Below, in pieces: positions 1 through 30,429 of a stretch of 30,500 bases of DNA. Source of the stretch: a virus; IMG/VR virus record IMGVR_UViG_3300042468_000890, positions 1 through 30,500 of that record. One strand, 5' to 3'. Each line of letters starts with the position of its first letter. Positions within the stretch are counted from its first letter, which is position 1. The position numbers were made by a program, and so were the translations under genes. The notes beneath the pieces are model-generated. The model searched no databases. It saw only the letters and a program-made list of their open reading frames with translations, and was not told the origin of the DNA.

Positions 1-480
1 GAGATGCCAGACTATGCTAAAGATATAAAACTCAATCTAGACACTACAATTAAACGTAGTGTACTGGGAGAAACAGCAGAGTACGTAGCACTAGCAGCAG
101 CTTTTGCTACTGGTCATCATAAATTGTGGACTTGGATTCACAGTGAAATGACCGATGATCAGGAAGCTAATGCAGCTATTACAGCAGCTAGTTTAATGGC
201 TATGAATAATACTTGGTATCCATATGTAGAGATGACCAAAGATATACAACTAAAAAACTTACCTGCTCAACTACGTATGAATGCAATTAGTACGCATGCT
301 GGAACTACAAAAGAAAAATTTGAGGCGTATAGCCTAGCTGCAAGCATTGTAGGCAAATGTGAATTTTGTGTAAAGGCACACTACGATACACTTCGCAAGG
401 CGGGTTATAGTGTAGAGCAACTGCGTGATATTGGTAGAATTAGTGCAGTAGTAGTTGCTGTAAGTAAAATAATGGTTTAA
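1..480 (+). CDS. ahpD: AhpD-like alkyl hydroperoxidase, 5' end cut by the window edge
   Basis: This is an AhpD/carboxymuconolactone decarboxylase-fold protein. In bacteria AhpD is a thiol-disulfide protein that passes electrons to the peroxiredoxin AhpC and has weak peroxidase activity. Counting from the ATG at base 4, the active-site set is complete: E107, C119-x-x-C122 (CEFC) and H126, with the same spacing as in mycobacterial AhpD. Residues 2-12 (PDYAKDIKLNL) match the stretch that in that family starts about ten residues in, and bases 1-3 continue the open frame. The real start is therefore probably upstream of the window and the ATG at 4 is internal. The stop lies 2 nt before a tRNA gene. 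A peroxide-defence gene is unusual in a phage; it may protect replication from oxidative stress, which is inference. The family call is firm; whether phage or host AhpC is its partner is unknown. Confidence 0.85.
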   Translation, partial: EMPDYAKDIKLNLDTTIKRSVLGETAEYVALAAAFATGHHKLWTWIHSEMTDDQEANAAITAASLMAMNNTWYPYVEMTKDIQLKNLPAQLRMNAISTHAGTTKEKFEAYSLAASIVGKCEFCVKAHYDTLRKAGYSVEQLRDIGRISAVVVAVSKIMV

Positions 481-7569: not shown

Positions 7570-8526
7570 ATGAATAAATTACATAAACTATTAGATAAAG
7601 CAAGTGAAGCGTACTATCAAGGTACACCCACTATTCCAGACTACATGTTTGACATGCTAGCAGAGGGTTGCGGCTATAACAAAGTTGGAGCGGCTGTGCA
7701 TGGCAAAAAAGATAAGCACGTACACCGCATGTATAGCCTGCAAAAGTTCTATGAAGATGAAGGCAAAGCTGATCCACTAGCAGGCCTAGACGTTACTACC
7801 AGCATCAAACTAGATGGTGCAGCTATTAGCCTGCTATATGTAGACGGCGTACTAGTGCAGGCACTTACTCGTGGTGATGGTATTGAGGGTCAGGTCATTA
7901 CAGATAAAATGTATGAGCACGGTAGTCTAGTGCCATTAAGAATTAATCTTGGTAATGTAACTGTACAAGTTACTGGCGAGATTGTGGCTCCACTGCATGT
8001 GGAAAATAGCCGTAATTATGCAGCAGGCAGCTTAAATCTCAAAGACTTGGATGAGTTTAAAACCAGGGCAATTGAGTTCTTTGCCTATCAAATAACACCA
8101 AGCCTAGACCCTACCTGGTCTGGTGATATGCGTGTGCTTAAACAACTAGGATTTAACACTGTACTAGAACCTGAACTTGCCAAGATTTATCCTAGTGACG
8201 GCATTGTTGTTAGACTGAATAATAATCATCAGTTTGAACAAATGGGATATACTAGCAAACATCCTCGTGGTGCATATGCTCGCAAAGAACGTGCACAGCA
8301 CGTAGAAACCAAACTACTAGCAGTTGAGTGGCAAGTAGGTAAAAGTGGTAAAGTTACCCCAGTGGCTATCCTAGAACCTGTTAAGATTGGTGATGCACTA
8401 GTCAGCAGAGCTACACTAAACAATCCAGGTTTTATCGAAGCCCTTGACTTGCGTATTGGTGACACAGTAGCTGTAGCCAGGGCAGGTGAAATCATACCTT
8501 GCATACTGCATAAAGTTGATGCGTAA
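7570..8526 (+). CDS. ligA: NAD+-dependent DNA ligase, N-terminal subunit (adenylation and OB domains)
   Basis: This is the front half of a bacterial-type LigA, which uses NAD+ to seal nicks. Residues 11-30 keep the YY...P...D...D.L pattern of the NMN-binding domain Ia. The nucleotidyltransferase domain has the adenylation lysine K80 in KLDG, RGDGIEG at 101-107, GEI at 136-138 and DGIVVR at 210-215. The OB domain includes GKVTPVAILEPV followed by LVSRATLNN (260-285). The protein stops after the OB domain at 318 residues, where full LigA (about 670) continues into zinc finger, HhH and BRCT domains; those are in the next gene. I recall the same split in phage T5. The ATG lies at the predicted transcription start of P3. 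Confidence 0.93.
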   Translation: MNKLHKLLDKASEAYYQGTPTIPDYMFDMLAEGCGYNKVGAAVHGKKDKHVHRMYSLQKFYEDEGKADPLAGLDVTTSIKLDGAAISLLYVDGVLVQALTRGDGIEGQVITDKMYEHGSLVPLRINLGNVTVQVTGEIVAPLHVENSRNYAAGSLNLKDLDEFKTRAIEFFAYQITPSLDPTWSGDMRVLKQLGFNTVLEPELAKIYPSDGIVVRLNNNHQFEQMGYTSKHPRGAYARKERAQHVETKLLAVEWQVGKSGKVTPVAILEPVKIGDALVSRATLNNPGFIEALDLRIGDTVAVARAGEIIPCILHKVDA

Positions 8527-8558
8527 ATTTTGTTGGCCCAGGCAAAGAAAATTTTAGC

Positions 8559-8587
8559 TTGTAACAATGTAGTCAATACTGTATAAT
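8559..8587 (+). promoter_or_regulatory. Sigma70-like promoter for ligB (P4)
   Basis: TTGTAA (8559-8564), a 17-bp spacer and TATAAT (8582-8587). The predicted start near 8594 gives an approximately 12-nt leader to the first ATG at 8606. The box lies in the 79-nt gap between the two ligase genes, so the halves can be transcribed separately. Confidence 0.85.
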
Positions 8588-8605
8588 AATATCTTAAGTT
8601 AAAAA

Positions 8606-9370
8606 ATGAATATGAAGATTGAAATACCAACACATTGTCCTTGTTGTAATTACAAACTTGAATTGGTCAACGATCAGCTATTCTGCCGCAACCAGGCATG
8701 TGATGCACAACTTAGCAAGCGTGTAGAACACTTTTGCAAAACAATGGGCATCAAAGGTATGGGCGCAAAAACTATTGAAAAGTTGGGCTTAGCAGACATT
8801 ACTGAAATCTACTACTTAGATCAAGCAGAAGTTGCTAATCAATTAAGTAGTACTAAAACTGCTGAAAAACTTCTCAGTGAGATTGAAAAGAGCCGCAGTG
8901 CCCCACTTAATCAAGTACTAGCAAGTTTTAGTATTCCACTTGTTGGCAATACTGCCAGTACCAAGATTAGCAGTGTAGTAAATCATATTGATGAAATTAA
9001 CTTAGAAACCTGTAAACAAGCTGGACTAGGAGATAAAGTAACAGAAAATCTACTAAGCTGGCTTGAATTAGATTTCCAAGAAATGCGAGAGTTCTTACCT
9101 TTTTCATTTCGCAGTGAAATGCCTGTAGTAAATACTAGTGGTAAAACTGTATGTATTACAGGCAAATTATCTTCTTATAAAACTAAAGCCGAAGCCTACA
9201 AGCAACTAACAGATCACGGATTTCGTATTAGCGAATCTGTAACTAAAACTACGGATTATTTGGTTGACGAAGAAGATAAAAGTAGTACAAAACGTAAAAA
9301 AGCCGAACAACTCGGAATACAAATTATCACAAACTTAAATACTTTTTTAAGAGAACATATCAATGACTGA
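8606..9370 (+). CDS. ligB: NAD+-dependent DNA ligase, C-terminal subunit (zinc finger, HhH, BRCT)
   Basis: This is the back half of LigA. Four cysteines C11, C14, C27 and C32 form the zinc finger. Helix-hairpin-helix repeats follow at about 45-165 (GIKGMGAKTIEKLGL, FSIPLVGNTASTK, GLGDKVTENLLSW), and a BRCT domain occupies about 177-248 (GKTVCITGKLSSYKTKAEAY, TDYLVDEED). These parts clamp DNA and should associate with the adenylation subunit encoded just upstream; neither half should be fully active alone. ATGs at 8606 and 8612 are both possible, and no good ribosome site precedes either. It has its own promoter (P4) and overlaps the next gene by 8 nt. Confidence 0.9.
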   Translation: MNMKIEIPTHCPCCNYKLELVNDQLFCRNQACDAQLSKRVEHFCKTMGIKGMGAKTIEKLGLADITEIYYLDQAEVANQLSSTKTAEKLLSEIEKSRSAPLNQVLASFSIPLVGNTASTKISSVVNHIDEINLETCKQAGLGDKVTENLLSWLELDFQEMREFLPFSFRSEMPVVNTSGKTVCITGKLSSYKTKAEAYKQLTDHGFRISESVTKTTDYLVDEEDKSSTKRKKAEQLGIQIITNLNTFLREHIND

Positions 9371-24911: not shown

Positions 24912-24940
24912 AAAAGCCCGCGATATGCGGGCTTTTATTT
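24912..24940 (+). terminator. Intrinsic terminator after the nrdJ unit
   Basis: AAAAGCCCGC (24912-24921), loop GATAT, GCGGGCTTTT (24927-24936), then ATTT. The carbamoyltransferase ATG at 24943 follows after 2 nt, with no promoter or ribosome site between. Confidence 0.9.
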
Positions 24941-24942
24941 AT

Positions 24943-26580
24943 ATGAGAATATTGGCTTTTAATATAGCGCACGATAGTTCAGTATGTGTTATTAACAATG
25001 GTATAATCGAATACTTTTGCAAAGAAGAACGGTTAAGTAGAGTTAAGCGAGACAAACATCCTTTTAAAGCATTAGAATTATATAAAAGTTTAAATTTAGG
25101 CAAAGTAGACTACGCATTATATAGTGTTCCTAGTAATGATGAATCTGATATAGAAATTACATATAAGCACTATATTAGAAAAATGTTTGGTGTTGAGCTA
25201 GAAAACTTTTCTAGTTTACTACATCACAGCTGTCACGCAAATTTAGCCTACTACAACAGCAAGTTTGATACAGCTTTGGTTTTTGTTATTGACAGAAATG
25301 GGTCAATATTTTTTGTAAATAGACATCCTGCTGCGCGTGAGTCTGAATCTGTATTTTTATTTACTAAAAATACTAGCAAAGCTATCTACAAACGTTTTTG
25401 GCTAAATGATAACTATCAAGGTCAAAAGTTACTGATAGCACGCGAACTAGAGGGTTTTTATCCAGATTGTGATATAATGGCTAATACTCATATGGGTATA
25501 GTAAAAGTATACGAAGCAGCAACAACTCTTATAGGTCAAAATGATTTGGAAAATGGTAAGACTATGGGTTTATCTGCCTATGGAAAAAATGATTTTGACT
25601 ATAAACTTTTTGATAGTTATGGCAACCCACTAGATCACTTATTTACTACAGCACAACAAACCTGTTTCCTAGAATTACAGGACAAAACTGTTAATAAAAT
25701 AACTACTGATAACTATGAATTTTATGCAGACATTGCAAAACAAGTGCAACTTCAAACACAGTTTGTAGTTAAAAACTTAATAGAATACTATGTAAATAGT
25801 ACAAATATTAACAATGTTTGCATTGTTGGTGGATATGGTTTAAATATTGTAGCAAATAATTATTATATTAAAAGTATTCCAGGTGTAAATTTTTATTTTG
25901 AGCCTATATCAGACGATACTGGTGTACCTATAGGTGCTGCTATGTTAAAATATAACATGCTAACTAATAGGGTTCCTAAACCAATAGATAATAGCTTTTT
26001 TCACTACTACAACTACAACGAACCACTAACACTTGGTAATAAAACTACACTAAAAGAATTGTGTAAACTTTTAGCAAATAAACAAAGTTTAGCTATTTTT
26101 GAAGGTCAGCCAGAATCGGGACCAAGAGCACTAGGACATAGATCAATATTATTTGATCCTAGGAACTTAGACGGAAAAGATCTGGTAAATAAAATAAAGC
26201 AACGAGAGTGGTATAGACCATTTGCAGCAGTAGTACTAGAAAGTGAATTTACAAAGTATTTTGATACACTAGGACTTGATAAGTCTAGGGATATGACTAT
26301 AAACTTTGATGTAAAACCAGAATTTGCTGAATATATACCTAGTGTTATTCACGTAGACAATACATGTAGAGTTCAAACTGTATCCCATGGATTTTTATTT
26401 GAGCTACTATTAGAATTCTTTAACCAAACAGGTTGTCCAATACTACTAAACACAAGTTTAAATTTAGCAGGCGAACCACTAGCACAAACAAAAAATGATG
26501 CTATTAATATATTCAATAACAGTAGCTTAGACGCAATTTATTTTGTAGACGATAATAAATTAATAAAAAAAGCCCAGTAG
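24943..26580 (+). CDS. NodU/CmcH-family carbamoyltransferase
   Basis: A 545-residue protein of the NodU/CmcH/TobZ family, which moves a carbamoyl group from carbamoyl phosphate via carbamoyl-AMP onto hydroxyl groups. The N-terminal Kae1/HSP70-like domain starts ILAFNIAHDSS and has HHSCHANLAYY near 95-105 (metal-binding His set) and VIDRNGS. The C-terminal YrdC-like domain carries QPESGPRALGHRSIL, a family hallmark, and ILLNTSLNLAGEP. Frame reading from ATG 24925 would start inside the terminator stem, so ATG 24943 is preferred. No ribosome site is visible, an oddity. The substrate could be a phage glycan or a DNA base modification. Its stop codon lies inside the bidirectional terminator. Confidence 0.88.
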   Translation: MRILAFNIAHDSSVCVINNGIIEYFCKEERLSRVKRDKHPFKALELYKSLNLGKVDYALYSVPSNDESDIEITYKHYIRKMFGVELENFSSLLHHSCHANLAYYNSKFDTALVFVIDRNGSIFFVNRHPAARESESVFLFTKNTSKAIYKRFWLNDNYQGQKLLIARELEGFYPDCDIMANTHMGIVKVYEAATTLIGQNDLENGKTMGLSAYGKNDFDYKLFDSYGNPLDHLFTTAQQTCFLELQDKTVNKITTDNYEFYADIAKQVQLQTQFVVKNLIEYYVNSTNINNVCIVGGYGLNIVANNYYIKSIPGVNFYFEPISDDTGVPIGAAMLKYNMLTNRVPKPIDNSFFHYYNYNEPLTLGNKTTLKELCKLLANKQSLAIFEGQPESGPRALGHRSILFDPRNLDGKDLVNKIKQREWYRPFAAVVLESEFTKYFDTLGLDKSRDMTINFDVKPEFAEYIPSVIHVDNTCRVQTVSHGFLFELLLEFFNQTGCPILLNTSLNLAGEPLAQTKNDAINIFNNSSLDAIYFVDDNKLIKKAQ

Positions 26581-26604: not shown

Positions 26605-27249
26605 TTATAGACTTAGTGGCGTATCTAAGTCGCTATCTTCATCATCTATAGTATTATCATTATCATGCATATCGTCTAGTTGACTAAATACCTCTACAAG
26701 TATATCACGATATGGTTGATCTACACGGTGTAAGTCTAAGAGGTAAATATCTAGGTGATCATTTCGCAATAATTCAGCATGGTACATAAACTGACCAAAT
26801 GCTTCTAAGTCTTCGCTGATGTTTTCGTTGGCATAATTTTCAATTACCTGTGCTGCCATCATACGCAGTGGCTTACTAATCATGCCTTTTTGCGCTACAC
26901 GTACTAGCTGCATTGCTTTGTTTTCACGATCACGCATAATTTGATTGCGCTTGGCAGTACTCCAACTATATCCGCCGTCACCGCCCCAAAGATCCCAAGC
27001 TACACGACCTTTACTAGGAAATCCTTCTTGTCCACTGTAAAAACCAGTTGCCTGTTTATCTACTTCATGTCTGCTAAAAAAGCTGTACATGCGTAATACT
27101 ACGCTTGCGCTTAATGGATCTCTATCTTTTAATTGATTAGCTCTGGCTAAGCCAACAAGTGTACCGCCAGCTTTACCTTCACTTTTCCATTTTAGTGCTC
27201 GTCTAGCAGCACTAGCCATTCCGCTTGTTGGTTTATAAGTTTTAGCCAT
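26605..27249 (-). CDS. Conserved phage-type domain protein (AARRALKWKSEGKAGG family), function unknown
   Basis: A 214-residue protein. Its first about 105 residues match a domain I recall from many phage proteins: AARRALKWK, GGTLVGLARANQLKDRDPLS, VLRMYSFFSRHEVDKQA, GRVAWDLWGGDGGYSW and then a basic helix. Its biochemical role is not known to me. The rest is helical and acidic, with a very acidic tail (DDMHDNDNTIDDEDSDLD). AGGAG lies nine bases upstream of the ATG. It is the last gene of the - strand operon, ending 4 nt before the bidirectional terminator stem. Confidence 0.7.
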   Translation of the reverse strand: MAKTYKPTSGMASAARRALKWKSEGKAGGTLVGLARANQLKDRDPLSASVVLRMYSFFSRHEVDKQATGFYSGQEGFPSKGRVAWDLWGGDGGYSWSTAKRNQIMRDRENKAMQLVRVAQKGMISKPLRMMAAQVIENYANENISEDLEAFGQFMYHAELLRNDHLDIYLLDLHRVDQPYRDILVEVFSQLDDMHDNDNTIDDEDSDLDTPLSL

Positions 27250-27260
27250 TACAACTCCTA

Positions 27261-28481
27261 TTATCGCATACGATTGTCATCAATAAATTTAATTTCATCT
27301 ACTAGAGCATCTGCATCCGTTTTAAAATTATTAAAGTCAGCTTTACTAATAGTCTTTAATAATTCTTCTAGTAGTTTTTGTGCTTCTTGATTATGTTCGT
27401 GCCTAGCAGCATATAACCAACGAAAAGCATTTTTATTATCAGCAACTTGTAAGTAGTATTTACCCAAATTTAGCATACTAGATACGTTGCGTTTCATTCC
27501 ACTGTCTTTAAGGTCGCCTAAAATACTTTCTATTTCGCTTTGGCTGCTTAATGGATCATTAAAAATCATAGTAGCTAATTTTTGATTAGCAGTTTCATTG
27601 ACTTTAGCTGCATGCCGTAAAAATTGCATAGCTAAACTATGACTTTCGTCTTTTACTAGGTCTACTATTTTTAATGCCGTTTCACTACTAACTTTTTGAT
27701 GTATTTCTCTAAAAACAGCATACGCATAGGTTTTTAACTCATTGGGCAAGCTGCTTTTCTGTAACAAATTTATTAATTCATCTAGTGCCTTTTGATCGCC
27801 TTTTAGTGCACGCCACATAAATATTCTAGTAGCTGCACTATAATTACCGTCTTGTTTGAAAGTTATACCATCATTTAAACTACGATTTCTGGCTGCTTGA
27901 TCATTAACTACGGCTGAAATTAATTCATTGTGTGTTTTTGCAGTGGATTTTTTAGTACTTTTGTTTAAGTGTGGGTTAGGTTCACTGCCCTCTATTACCA
28001 CACTCCAAATTTCCATTGGTTCTACATTTTTAAATTCTTGCAAGCCACGACTAACAAATTTATAATCTTTTATTTTTGTACTAACTAGTCTATATACACT
28101 ATCAGTTAATGTAACACCACCATAATCAGCAAGACTTTCTGTACGAGCTGCTAAGTTTACAGCATCACCCATTAAGTTAGTGCCATAGACCCAAACTTCG
28201 CCTACATGCATGCCTATACGCCAACGCATGCCATTATTTAATTTGCGGATATGGTGTTGCATGTCTATGCCAAATCGCACTGCATCTACAGCACTGGCAA
28301 ATTCAATGAGTACACTGTCTCCGCCTGTATTAAATAAACGTCCTCGATAAGTGTTTATTAATTCGTCAATAACAGCACGGCAAGCATCTAATTTAGCTAG
28401 TGTTCCTGCTTCATCACGCTGCATTAGGGTACTATAGCCAATAACATCACTACAGATTATGGTGGCAAGTTTAGTTTCCAT
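27261..28481 (-). CDS. Class III nucleotide cyclase with C-terminal helical repeats
   Basis: A 406-residue protein. Residues 1-165 form a complete class III adenylate/guanylate cyclase domain: metal-binding D12 (SDVIGYS) and D55 (GDSVLIEF), transition-state residues N109 and R113 (GDAVNLAARTE), and the closing LQEFKNVEPMEIW. The two positions that set purine choice hold N51 (Lys in mammalian adenylate cyclases) and N102 (Asp there), so the substrate cannot be assigned. Related bacterial cyclases with an FNT motif exist, as I recall. Residues about 190-406 are alpha-helical, Sel1/TPR-like (MLNLGKYYLQVADNKNAFRWLYAA), and probably regulatory. No signal peptide or membrane segment. It overlaps the upstream small membrane gene by 11 nt, and no good ribosome site is seen, suggesting coupling. 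Confidence 0.9.
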   Translation of the reverse strand: METKLATIICSDVIGYSTLMQRDEAGTLAKLDACRAVIDELINTYRGRLFNTGGDSVLIEFASAVDAVRFGIDMQHHIRKLNNGMRWRIGMHVGEVWVYGTNLMGDAVNLAARTESLADYGGVTLTDSVYRLVSTKIKDYKFVSRGLQEFKNVEPMEIWSVVIEGSEPNPHLNKSTKKSTAKTHNELISAVVNDQAARNRSLNDGITFKQDGNYSAATRIFMWRALKGDQKALDELINLLQKSSLPNELKTYAYAVFREIHQKVSSETALKIVDLVKDESHSLAMQFLRHAAKVNETANQKLATMIFNDPLSSQSEIESILGDLKDSGMKRNVSSMLNLGKYYLQVADNKNAFRWLYAARHEHNQEAQKLLEELLKTISKADFNNFKTDADALVDEIKFIDDNRMR

Positions 28482-28659
28482 TATGCTTTTGTTCTTTTAT
28501 TAATCTGTTAACTTGATCCCAGAGTGCAGTAATCTGTCTATCATAATTTTTTTCAAGATAATCTAGTCTAACTTTAATCGTAACAGCATAAGCAGCTATA
28601 GCAACTATTCCAGCACCTAAAAACCATAATTTACCAACAGCGTCTGTAACTGCTTCCAT
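28471..28659 (-). CDS. Small TM plus coiled-coil protein (XhlA-like layout)
   Basis: A 62-residue protein with one hydrophobic helix at about 10-28 (LWFLGAGIVAIAAYAV), then a charged heptad-like helix (VRLDYLEKNYDRQITALWDQVNRLIKE). This layout resembles XhlA-type membrane/lysis accessory proteins, but in those the coiled coil precedes the membrane segment, so the resemblance is only partial. Strong ribosome site AGAGGAG. It overlaps the cyclase start by 11 nt, so the two are made together; it may anchor the cyclase at the membrane or belong to lysis. Both are guesses. Confidence 0.65.
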   Translation of the reverse strand: MEAVTDAVGKLWFLGAGIVAIAAYAVTIKVRLDYLEKNYDRQITALWDQVNRLIKEQKHNGN

Positions 28660-28661
28660 GC

Positions 28662-28958
28662 TTATAACTCCTCTTTATACTTATTACTTAAAAACCCAAC
28701 TGTAGCATTTATCTTTTCCATGTGTTTGCTAGTAATTCGTTTTAGTTGAAGTATTCTTTCTAGTTCTAGTATAAATTCGGCTATATCTTCTGGATAGCTA
28801 GACTGCGTAAAGCAGTCTAGCATCTGTACTATAGTTTCTCTATATTCGTCTTGTTTATTTATTCTTGGTTTTGCGGCAGGCCTATCTACATGATCTAAGT
28901 AATATCTAACCCAGTATATTCCTTGATTACGATTTTTAGGTGGGAGTTTAAGTCTCAT
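28662..28958 (-). CDS. Unknown protein downstream of phoH
   Basis: A 98-residue soluble protein: basic N-terminus (MRLKLPPKNRNQGIYWVRYYLDHVDRP shortened here to its key parts RLKLPPKNR and YWVRYYLDHV), then three helices (ETIVQMLDCF, IAEFILELERILQL, MEKINATVGFLSNK). No family recognised. Its ATG overlaps the phoH stop by 4 nt (ATGA) and its stop lies 2 nt before the next ATG, so it is tightly coupled in the operon. Confidence 0.65.
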   Translation of the reverse strand: MRLKLPPKNRNQGIYWVRYYLDHVDRPAAKPRINKQDEYRETIVQMLDCFTQSSYPEDIAEFILELERILQLKRITSKHMEKINATVGFLSNKYKEEL

Positions 28959-29641
28959 TGTTTATAGGCCATAATTATTTGTTTACAGAGTTTACTGCGA
29001 ACAATATCTTCATCACGAAATCTAACAACCTCAATGCCTTCGATATGTTCTAATCTATTAGTAGCATCTAAGAGTCCGCTATTGCTAATATCGCTTTGCT
29101 CGTGATCTCCGCTAATTATAATTTTACAGTTTTTACCTATGCGTGACAAGATCATTTTCAGCTCATCCCTAGTAGCATTTTGTGCTTCGTCTAGGAGTAC
29201 TATACAGTCGTCAAATGTTAGTCCTCGCATAAATCCTAACGGTTTAGGTTCTATTTGTTTTTTACTCAGTGCATACTCATAAAATCCTTTACCTAGGCTA
29301 TTAGTAAAAATTTGATCAAACGGTTCTAGGTATGGTGCGTATTTTTCTTCTAGTGTACCAGGTAAGAAGCCTAATCCTCGTCCAGTTTCTATATTAGGTC
29401 TGGTTAGTATTATTTTTTTAATGCGCCGGTGAAATAACTCACCGGCTGCATATGTGGCTGCAATATAGGTTTTACCTGTACCTGCGCTACCTATACCAAA
29501 AACAATACTATTACTATGTATTGCCATTAAATATTCTTCTTGAATATAATTTAATGGAGTTACATTTTCAAAACCTATTTCTAGCGGGATTACGTTATCG
29601 CGTTGAACGCTTCTTAGCTTTTTAGCACTGCTCTTGGCCAT
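28955..29641 (-). CDS. phoH: PhoH-like ATPase
   Basis: A 228-residue P-loop ATPase of the PhoH family: Walker A GSAGTGKT (51-58), ILTRPNIETG (78-87), the family segment LGFLPGTLEEKYAPYLEP (90-107), Walker B VLLDEAQN (148-155) and SGDHEQSD. The family is related to SF1 helicases, and bacterial PhoH2 is an RNA helicase/RNase when fused to a PIN domain; here there is no PIN domain. It is very common in marine and freshwater phages, with no settled function. AGGA lies 7 nt before the ATG. The first about 15 residues are basic. Confidence 0.93.
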   Translation of the reverse strand: MAKSSAKKLRSVQRDNVIPLEIGFENVTPLNYIQEEYLMAIHSNSIVFGIGSAGTGKTYIAATYAAGELFHRRIKKIILTRPNIETGRGLGFLPGTLEEKYAPYLEPFDQIFTNSLGKGFYEYALSKKQIEPKPLGFMRGLTFDDCIVLLDEAQNATRDELKMILSRIGKNCKIIISGDHEQSDISNSGLLDATNRLEHIEGIEVVRFRDEDIVRSKLCKQIIMAYKQ

Positions 29642-29662: not shown

Positions 29663-29965
29663 TTACTTTTTATCAGGTACTTTGTGTCCGTCTAATTTTT
29701 CGTGAACCTTAACTTCTTTACACACTTGTTCTGGCTTACCATCTTTGCCAATAACAGGCTTACCATCTTTTACTTTATCAATACAAGCCTTTTCTTTTTT
29801 AGCTTCTTCTTTTTTAGCAGGAGCCTTTTCTTCTTTCTTAGCTGGCTCATCCTTTTTAGCTTCTACTTTAGCTGGTGCTTTTTCTTCCTTTTTAACTGGA
29901 TCAGCTGCTAATGCTGGTTGTATTAAAAGTGCTGAAGCTACAAATGCTAATAGAATTTTAGTCAT
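29663..29965 (-). CDS. Secreted Lys/Glu/Ala/Pro-rich repeat protein
   Basis: A 100-residue protein with a clear Sec signal peptide: MTK, hydrophobic core ILLAFVASALLI, and a cleavage site after ALA (residues 18-20). The mature protein is almost wholly K/E/A/P with a KKEEKAPAK-type repeat at about 25-57, then a more ordered part with two Cys (ACIDK, VCKEV) and GKPVIGKDGKPEQ. It should lie in the periplasm, with a possible disulfide. The extended charged rod resembles the middle of TolA or TonB-like proteins, but no such domain is present. AGGA ribosome site. Possible periplasmic or virion-surface spacer; function unknown. Confidence 0.75.
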   Translation of the reverse strand: MTKILLAFVASALLIQPALAADPVKKEEKAPAKVEAKKDEPAKKEEKAPAKKEEAKKEKACIDKVKDGKPVIGKDGKPEQVCKEVKVHEKLDGHKVPDKK

Positions 29966-29976
29966 ATAGTTTCCTA

Positions 29977-30429
29977 TTATAGTTCTGGAAATGGTTGTTG
30001 AGGAGGTGCGGCTTTGCCGCCAAACCCAACAGTTACTTGATTGCCGCCAGTTGATGGTGCTATGCTTATGCTGCCGTTGTTACCTAGGGTAACCATAGGA
30101 GTAGACATAGGTGGTGGGCTTGGTGGCTTATCCCAACCTTTATTTGCAGCTTGTAGGGCTGCTTTTTGAGCTTCCTTATCACCACTAGCTAACATAATAC
30201 CACTAAGAGTACCTGTTAAAAAAGTAGCTATAGGAATAATCAATTCAAAAAATTTGTTATCTACAGGGCTAATACCATTCATAGGTTGTGTTACAAATAT
30301 TAAGCTGTAGAGTACTACAAATACGATACCAAATAATGTTAATGCTAGTACCATACCTATAAAAAATTTAAGCCTAGCCATTAACTCATCTTCAGTATAG
30401 CGCGGGCCTTCCCATAGGTCTTTAATCAT
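29977..30429 (-). CDS. Two-TM membrane protein with Pro/Gly-rich tail
   Basis: A 150-residue protein. After a charged N-terminus (MIKDLWEGPRYTEDELMARL) come two hydrophobic helices, about 22-47 (FFIGMVLALTLFGIVFVVLYSLIFV) split by no charge, and 61-82 (FELIIPIATFLTGTLSGIML). The C-terminal about 65 residues are rich in Pro, Gly and Asn (PPSPPPMSTP, then GNNGSISIAPSTGGNQ). The layout could suit a holin or virion/membrane anchor, but no family is recognised. Its ATG overlaps the upstream stop by 4 nt, so it is coupled to the partial gene at the window edge. Confidence 0.7.
   Translation of the reverse strand: MIKDLWEGPRYTEDELMARLKFFIGMVLALTLFGIVFVVLYSLIFVTQPMNGISPVDNKFFELIIPIATFLTGTLSGIMLASGDKEAQKAALQAANKGWDKPPSPPPMSTPMVTLGNNGSISIAPSTGGNQVTVGFGGKAAPPQQPFPEL

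Follow-up and report, generated by a model that had tools for sequence, protein, structure and literature searches.

Introduction

What does a phage do with a nucleotide cyclase of its own? That phages break down or sequester cyclic-nucleotide signals is known; a signal of this kind made by the phage itself has, to our knowledge, been little explored, the pelagiphage case apart. The window analysed here, which is the whole of a 30.5-kb IMG/VR virus record, carries an open reading frame for a class III nucleotide cyclase (Table 1). We put the probability at about 0.6 that this is an active, probably membrane-linked phage cyclase, which would make a 3',5'-cyclic nucleotide (cNMP) late in infection.

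The phage would be T5-like, judging by its replication genes: the DNA polymerase (which shares up to 49% identity with polymerases of Enterobacter and Vibrio phages), the split NAD-dependent ligase, a D5-like regulator and an SbcCD-like pair all resemble those of T5-like phages, in which a split ligase of this kind is known. The preliminary description had placed the cyclase beside phoH and genes for membrane or secreted proteins, and the same strand does carry a PhoH-like ATPase together with one-TM, two-TM and signal-peptide-like proteins. A carbamoyltransferase gene on the opposite strand is convergent with this operon, and a relative of the protein encoded at the start of the window occurs in another cyclase-bearing contig (L013).

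Table 1. Features of the window (30.5 kb); positions are counted from its first nucleotide
Feature	Position	Strand	Basis or remark
Class III nucleotide cyclase, 406 aa, ATG start	27261..28481	-	PF00211; AlphaFold2 model; Foldseek; 12-member phage alignment
Catalytic domain, residues 1-165	27987..28481	-	alignments; median dN/dS 0.13
Codon of D12	28446-28448	-	
Codon of N51	28329-28331	-	
Codon of D55	28317-28319	-	
Codon of N102	28176-28178	-	
Codon of N109	28155-28157	-	
Codon of R113	28143-28145	-	
All-helical C-terminal domain, Sel1/TPR-like, residues 184-405	27267..27932	-	profile search; model; median dN/dS 0.21
Partner c1, 62 aa, one predicted TM helix and charged helical tail	28471..28659	-	
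98-aa ORF	28662..28958	-	no match in Pfam or PHROGs; retained in L242, where c1 and cyclase are missing
PhoH-like ATPase	28955..29641	-	PF02562, 225.6 bits; phrog_170
100-aa Lys/Glu/Pro-rich protein, signal-peptide-like N-terminus	29663..29965	-	sequence; no match in Pfam or PHROGs
150-aa membrane protein (c3), two hydrophobic segments	29977..30429	-	phrog_25359; relatives in at least 472 viral contigs
214-aa protein, downstream of cyclase	26605..27249	-	phrog_2859; right-hand edge of the c1-cyclase unit
Nol-like carbamoyltransferase	24925-26580	+	phrog_1601
NAD-dependent DNA ligase, as two split genes	7570-9370	+	
Protein with CxxC-x2-H pattern, AhpD/carboxymuconolactone-decarboxylase-like by eye	1-480	+	no match in PHROGs

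A class III cyclase with a helical C-terminal domain

The assignment to class III, as claimed in the preliminary description, is confirmed. The Pfam family Guanylate_cyc (PF00211) matches the protein with 41.6 bits against a cut-off of 21.9 and is present in 15/15 cyclase-bearing viral records, and the nearest solved structures, by sequence and by fold alike, are class III cyclases: 3mr7, 1ybt/1ybu (Rv1900c) and Ma1120. An AlphaFold2 model of the monomer has a mean pLDDT of 89.6, with a weak linker at residues 174-180, and a pTM of 0.50, which leaves the arrangement of the domains uncertain. When the catalytic part was searched with Foldseek, Rv1900c came closest (1ybu; TM-score 0.90 by target length), followed by 3mr7 and Ma1120.

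Alignments with class III cyclases place the catalytic residues D12, D55, N109 and R113, all intact, at the positions proposed for them earlier. Together with N51 and N102 they are invariant among 12 aligned phage members that are 72-82% identical to the window's protein, and the four are kept in nearly all relatives of a wider residue listing. The family is under purifying selection, with the median dN/dS values given in Table 1; these values and the many close relatives described below put the gene far beyond chance. Profile, fold, the two metal-binding Asp and the transition-state Asn/Arg are those of a class III nucleotidyl cyclase, and the enzyme is apparently catalytically competent.

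The helical C-terminus, which had been suggested as a regulatory element, is Sel1/TPR-like by profile search and model: it matches a TPR repeat protein (6deh, E 4e-9) and a SEL-1 repeat protein (8sxq, E 9e-9), Sel1 proteins are found among the weaker BFVD matches, and the helices are visible in the model. This domain could indeed be regulatory and is likely to be a docking site, through which the enzyme may be held at the membrane.

The Asn-Asn pair and the substrate

At the purine positions, where an ATP-specific adenylyl cyclase has Lys and Asp or Thr (K/D or K/T), the phage enzyme has N51 and N102 instead. Both had been located correctly, since they align with the columns that hold Lys and Asp in K/D cyclases such as 3mr7 ('VKTTGD ... 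GDIFGDAVN'). This Silicibacter pomeroyi protein, the best sequence match among solved structures, differs by that K/D pair, whereas the catalytic domain of M. tuberculosis Rv1900c (1ybt/1ybu), the best structural match, shares the Asn at the Lys position ('VNTAGD') but has D at N102 and H at N109 and is fused to an alpha/beta hydrolase.

The pair had been presented as a peculiarity of the phage, and this view we reject. Chromosomal relatives from marine alphaproteobacteria and from a Burkholderiaceae MAG carry both N51 and N102; the seed patterns used to fetch the chromosomal loci favoured N51, while N102 was not selected for. Ten of 53 class III domain hits in which all key columns were readable are N/N, in a set that combines five genomes chosen for such genes with the single best hit from each genome of a class sample. 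The count therefore speaks for N/N being common in those genomes and not for its true frequency. In a maximum-likelihood tree the phage clade groups with the bacterial N/N cyclases and nests inside the N/N part, among the chromosomal members. Moreover, five phage members have D102 instead of N102; these natural variants (L039, L040, L045, L046 and L060) also show D106 changed to E.

Because N/N is common in the nearest chromosomal cyclases of aquatic proteobacteria and five phage members have D102, the pair looks inherited from bacterial ancestors and is not evidence for a new substrate. The sequence does not reveal which nucleotide is used; ATP is our first guess and GTP the second. In all likelihood a 3',5'-cNMP is formed.

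Distribution and descent of the cyclase

The gene's occurrence in relatives, which had been named as a check, is broad: two scans of the viral collection found proteins 62-82% identical, most of them full length, in dozens of other viral contigs. Among these are contigs as long as 400, 183 and 150 kb, as well as a group that has lysozyme genes and tail-fibre-like genes. The class III cyclases in a set of 50,697 phage records are all distant ones, one of which is that of pelagiphage HTVC008M. In the tree, 43 phage cyclases form one clade with 100/100 support, which sits near L071, a Burkholderiaceae MAG contig, and a marine viral group (L066-L070), and which spans contigs whose other genes differ. 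We propose that the cyclase is exchangeable phage cargo, descended from a chromosomal N/N subfamily of aquatic proteobacteria.

The chromosomal N/N cyclases, for example those of HIMB11 (L075) and of the Burkholderiaceae MAG (L071), share with the phage enzyme the catalytic-domain clade, N51/N102 and the motifs NTGGDS and N-L-x-GD-x-VN. Those of alphaproteobacteria differ in having another, longer C-terminus, for a total of about 610 aa. L071 is the nearest cellular full-length relative and matches the phage cyclase over residues 1-399 at 34%; among 150 genomes of its bacterial family no full-length cyclase of its type was found besides its own. At L071:5001-7105 this cyclase is followed directly by a protein with a cNMP-binding (CNB) domain, with FlhB and RpoN genes upstream. 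The two may be an ancestral pair of cyclase and receptor, and the CNB protein suggests that the product is a conventional cNMP. The phage genes, in contrast, are not adjoined by such a protein.

The surroundings of the phage copies hold further recurrent genes. Upstream of the cyclase module, several phage groups share genes for two large repeat proteins that look secreted (457 and 791 aa, of no Pfam family), as at L002:2-3747 and in its relatives. A gene for coproporphyrinogen III oxidase of the heme pathway lies close to the cyclase in the large-phage contigs L007, L010, L011, L024, L026 and L055, an assignment tested with PF01218 on the L007 copy, with which the other five cluster.

Linkage to membrane-protein and lysis genes

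A feature that the preliminary description missed is the company the gene keeps. A small predicted membrane-protein gene directly adjoins the cyclase in 47/47 phage loci, against a background of 0.239 such genes per ORF; since the loci are related and TM segments were called by a simple hydropathy threshold, this is strong but not independent evidence. The adjoining families vary (c1, c10, c20, c22 and c61), so there is no single universal partner, and in other groups other small TM or coiled-coil proteins are coupled to the cyclase. All of these coupled membrane proteins are candidates for the docking partner.

The partner in the window's lineage is c1, whose 3' end shares 11 bp with the start of the cyclase gene. 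It lies near the cyclase in 32/47 loci, and the same pair, with a 1-bp overlap, is found in L057 and L058, which represent a phage that has a terminase and unrelated neighbours. Three close relatives whose ribonucleotide reductase (RNR) is 95-97% identical to the window's (L242, L243 and L246) lack both genes: there, phoH, followed in L242 by the 98-aa ORF, runs to the 214-aa ORF without c1 or cyclase. On the showing of these three relatives, c1 and the cyclase are gained or lost together in this lineage, as a two-gene unit.

Conversely, c1 does not need the cyclase. Among 80 fetched contigs with the c1 family, 34 have the cyclase and 46 do not, which leads us to reject c1 as an exclusive cyclase effector; in the 50,697 phage records c1 found no match. 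The two-TM protein c3 is rejected as a partner as well, the cyclase being present in only 5 of 80 fetched contigs of this family, which occurs in at least 472. In 46/46 of the cyclase-free c1 contigs a holin-like gene lies within 0.5 kb, and a lysozyme gene does so in 43, the other three contigs ending within that distance. By this context, the c1 family belongs to the lysis cassette in every one of the 46 cyclase-free contigs examined.

In nine loci (L034, L035, L038-L040, L042, L045, L046 and L060) the cyclase itself is flanked by the gene for a holin-like membrane protein of 160 aa on one side and that for a phage lysozyme on the other. The order in L040 is c1, c31, holin-like c20, cyclase, lysozyme; this cassette recurs in L178 and L156 with no cyclase in it. 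Between L040 and L178 the shared genes c31, c20, c1 and lysozyme are 81-94% identical (c20 94%, lysozyme 81%), and the GTGA start/stop overlap of the lysozyme is kept in both, with the stop of the cyclase in L040 and with that of c20 in L178. In L179 (10373-11863) a different ORF, endonuclease-like by eye, lies between the holin-like gene and the lysozyme, and hence this spot takes other cargo too. A literature search restricted to papers outside subscription turned up no nucleotide cyclase described from the lysis cassette of a phage. The linkage to lysis and membrane genes is probably a new pattern and a stronger observation than the Asn-Asn pair.

Comparison with known cyclase systems

Pelagiphage HTVC008M sets a precedent for a class III adenylate cyclase in a tailed phage (PMC9599517). 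Its enzyme is about 24% identical to that of L066 over 40% of the query and differs in architecture, with 612 aa, a hydrophobic N-terminal half, K/S at the two specificity positions and a place in a curli-secretion cluster. We rejected a curli-cluster cyclase of this type for the present family, given that architecture and a search of 30 of the present cyclase records in which no CsgG (PF03783) was found.

A link to Pycsar immunity had also been raised. PycC belongs to the same superfamily, and the phage cyclase may possibly work as PycC does, by making a cNMP; membership in the system finds no support. PycC profiles match weakly, at E 3e-4 for the window's cyclase and 2.5e-7 at best in the family, and 15 viral records with the cyclase, of which many are fragmentary, yielded no CNB domain (PF00027), so that a Pycsar-type operon is not seen. 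No effector gene of CNB, TIR or TM type was found with the phage cyclase, whose context is one of lysis or membrane genes.

A possible mode of action

What the analysis shows directly is the sequence, a fold prediction, residue conservation, purifying selection, a single phage clade, the linkage, the insertion sites and joint presence or absence; that the enzyme is active, what it acts on, its dimerisation and docking at the membrane, and its timing, receptor and benefit are inferred. The cyclase would homodimerise, like other class III enzymes that have just one catalytic domain. Its Sel1/TPR-type C-terminal domain may dock it to the small membrane protein or the lysis machinery, or may sense either. 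Late in infection the enzyme would convert ATP, most likely, and perhaps GTP too, into the 3',5'-cyclic nucleotide, which would then act on cNMP receptors of the host. A phage-encoded CNB receptor was rejected on the same 15 records, mostly fragments, and the receptor would consequently be the host's or one unlike PF00027.

As to purpose, we rank host reprogramming first, lysis timing second and interference with immunity third; these judgements concern what the enzyme is for and overlap with the main statement. Host reprogramming is a tentative choice. Here the cyclase would be a free-standing auxiliary gene that raises host cAMP or cGMP and drives CRP-type regulation, the lysis neighbourhood being a permissive insertion spot in a late operon. 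The other cargo in the c20-lysozyme spot (L179) fits this, as do the jumbo-phage copies that adjoin replication genes and the coproporphyrinogen oxidase gene, the lack of a phage receptor in the 15 records and the CNB protein next to the nearest bacterial copy. Against it stand the membrane-protein gene that adjoins the cyclase at all 47 loci and the joint coming and going of c1 and cyclase.

A device for lysis or membrane timing is a somewhat doubtful reading. Here c1 or the holin-like proteins would be under the control of the cyclic nucleotide, or of the cyclase as a protein, and this would set when, or even whether, the cell bursts. Speaking for it are the insertion point, which lies precisely between the holin-like gene and the endolysin and preserves their translational coupling, the lysis-cassette role of c1 in 46/46 cyclase-free contigs and the coupled small proteins of other groups. 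Yet c1 and c20 are no more than holin-like (c20 matches the phrog_3427 holin at E 1.6e-4, which is weak), c1 is too small for a known cNMP-binding fold, and beside the jumbo-phage cyclases no lysis gene was identified. More doubtful still is a full second-messenger switch, by which a phage-made cyclic mononucleotide, through or with a small lysis-cassette membrane protein, would control lysis or membrane state.

An immune role is unlikely. By flooding the cell, the cyclic nucleotide could confuse, saturate or pre-empt immunity of the CBASS, Pycsar or Panoptes type, or c1 and cyclase could form a Pycsar-like pair for superinfection exclusion; a cyclase next to a small membrane protein does recall how cyclase-effector immune pairs are laid out, 37/42 members are matched by PycC models, if weakly, and decoy nucleotide signalling exists in bacteria (PMC12657218). 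However, the best structural and sequence neighbours are bacterial cyclases, PycC matches are weaker than those of PF00211, neither a CNB nor a TIR effector was found beside the cyclase, and c1 is elsewhere a lysis-cassette protein. That the cyclase fold is kept as a non-catalytic scaffold, for dimerisation or structure, is very improbable, as the metal and transition-state residues rank among the most conserved alignment columns and the catalytic part has the lowest dN/dS.

This cyclase is shared by many unrelated phages of aquatic habitats, and what is new is its distribution and its neighbourhood. A clade common to unrelated phages, its membrane and lysis genes and the natural empty sites together make a question testable: does a phage make a second messenger of its own and, if so, is it host metabolism, immunity or lysis timing that is steered by it?
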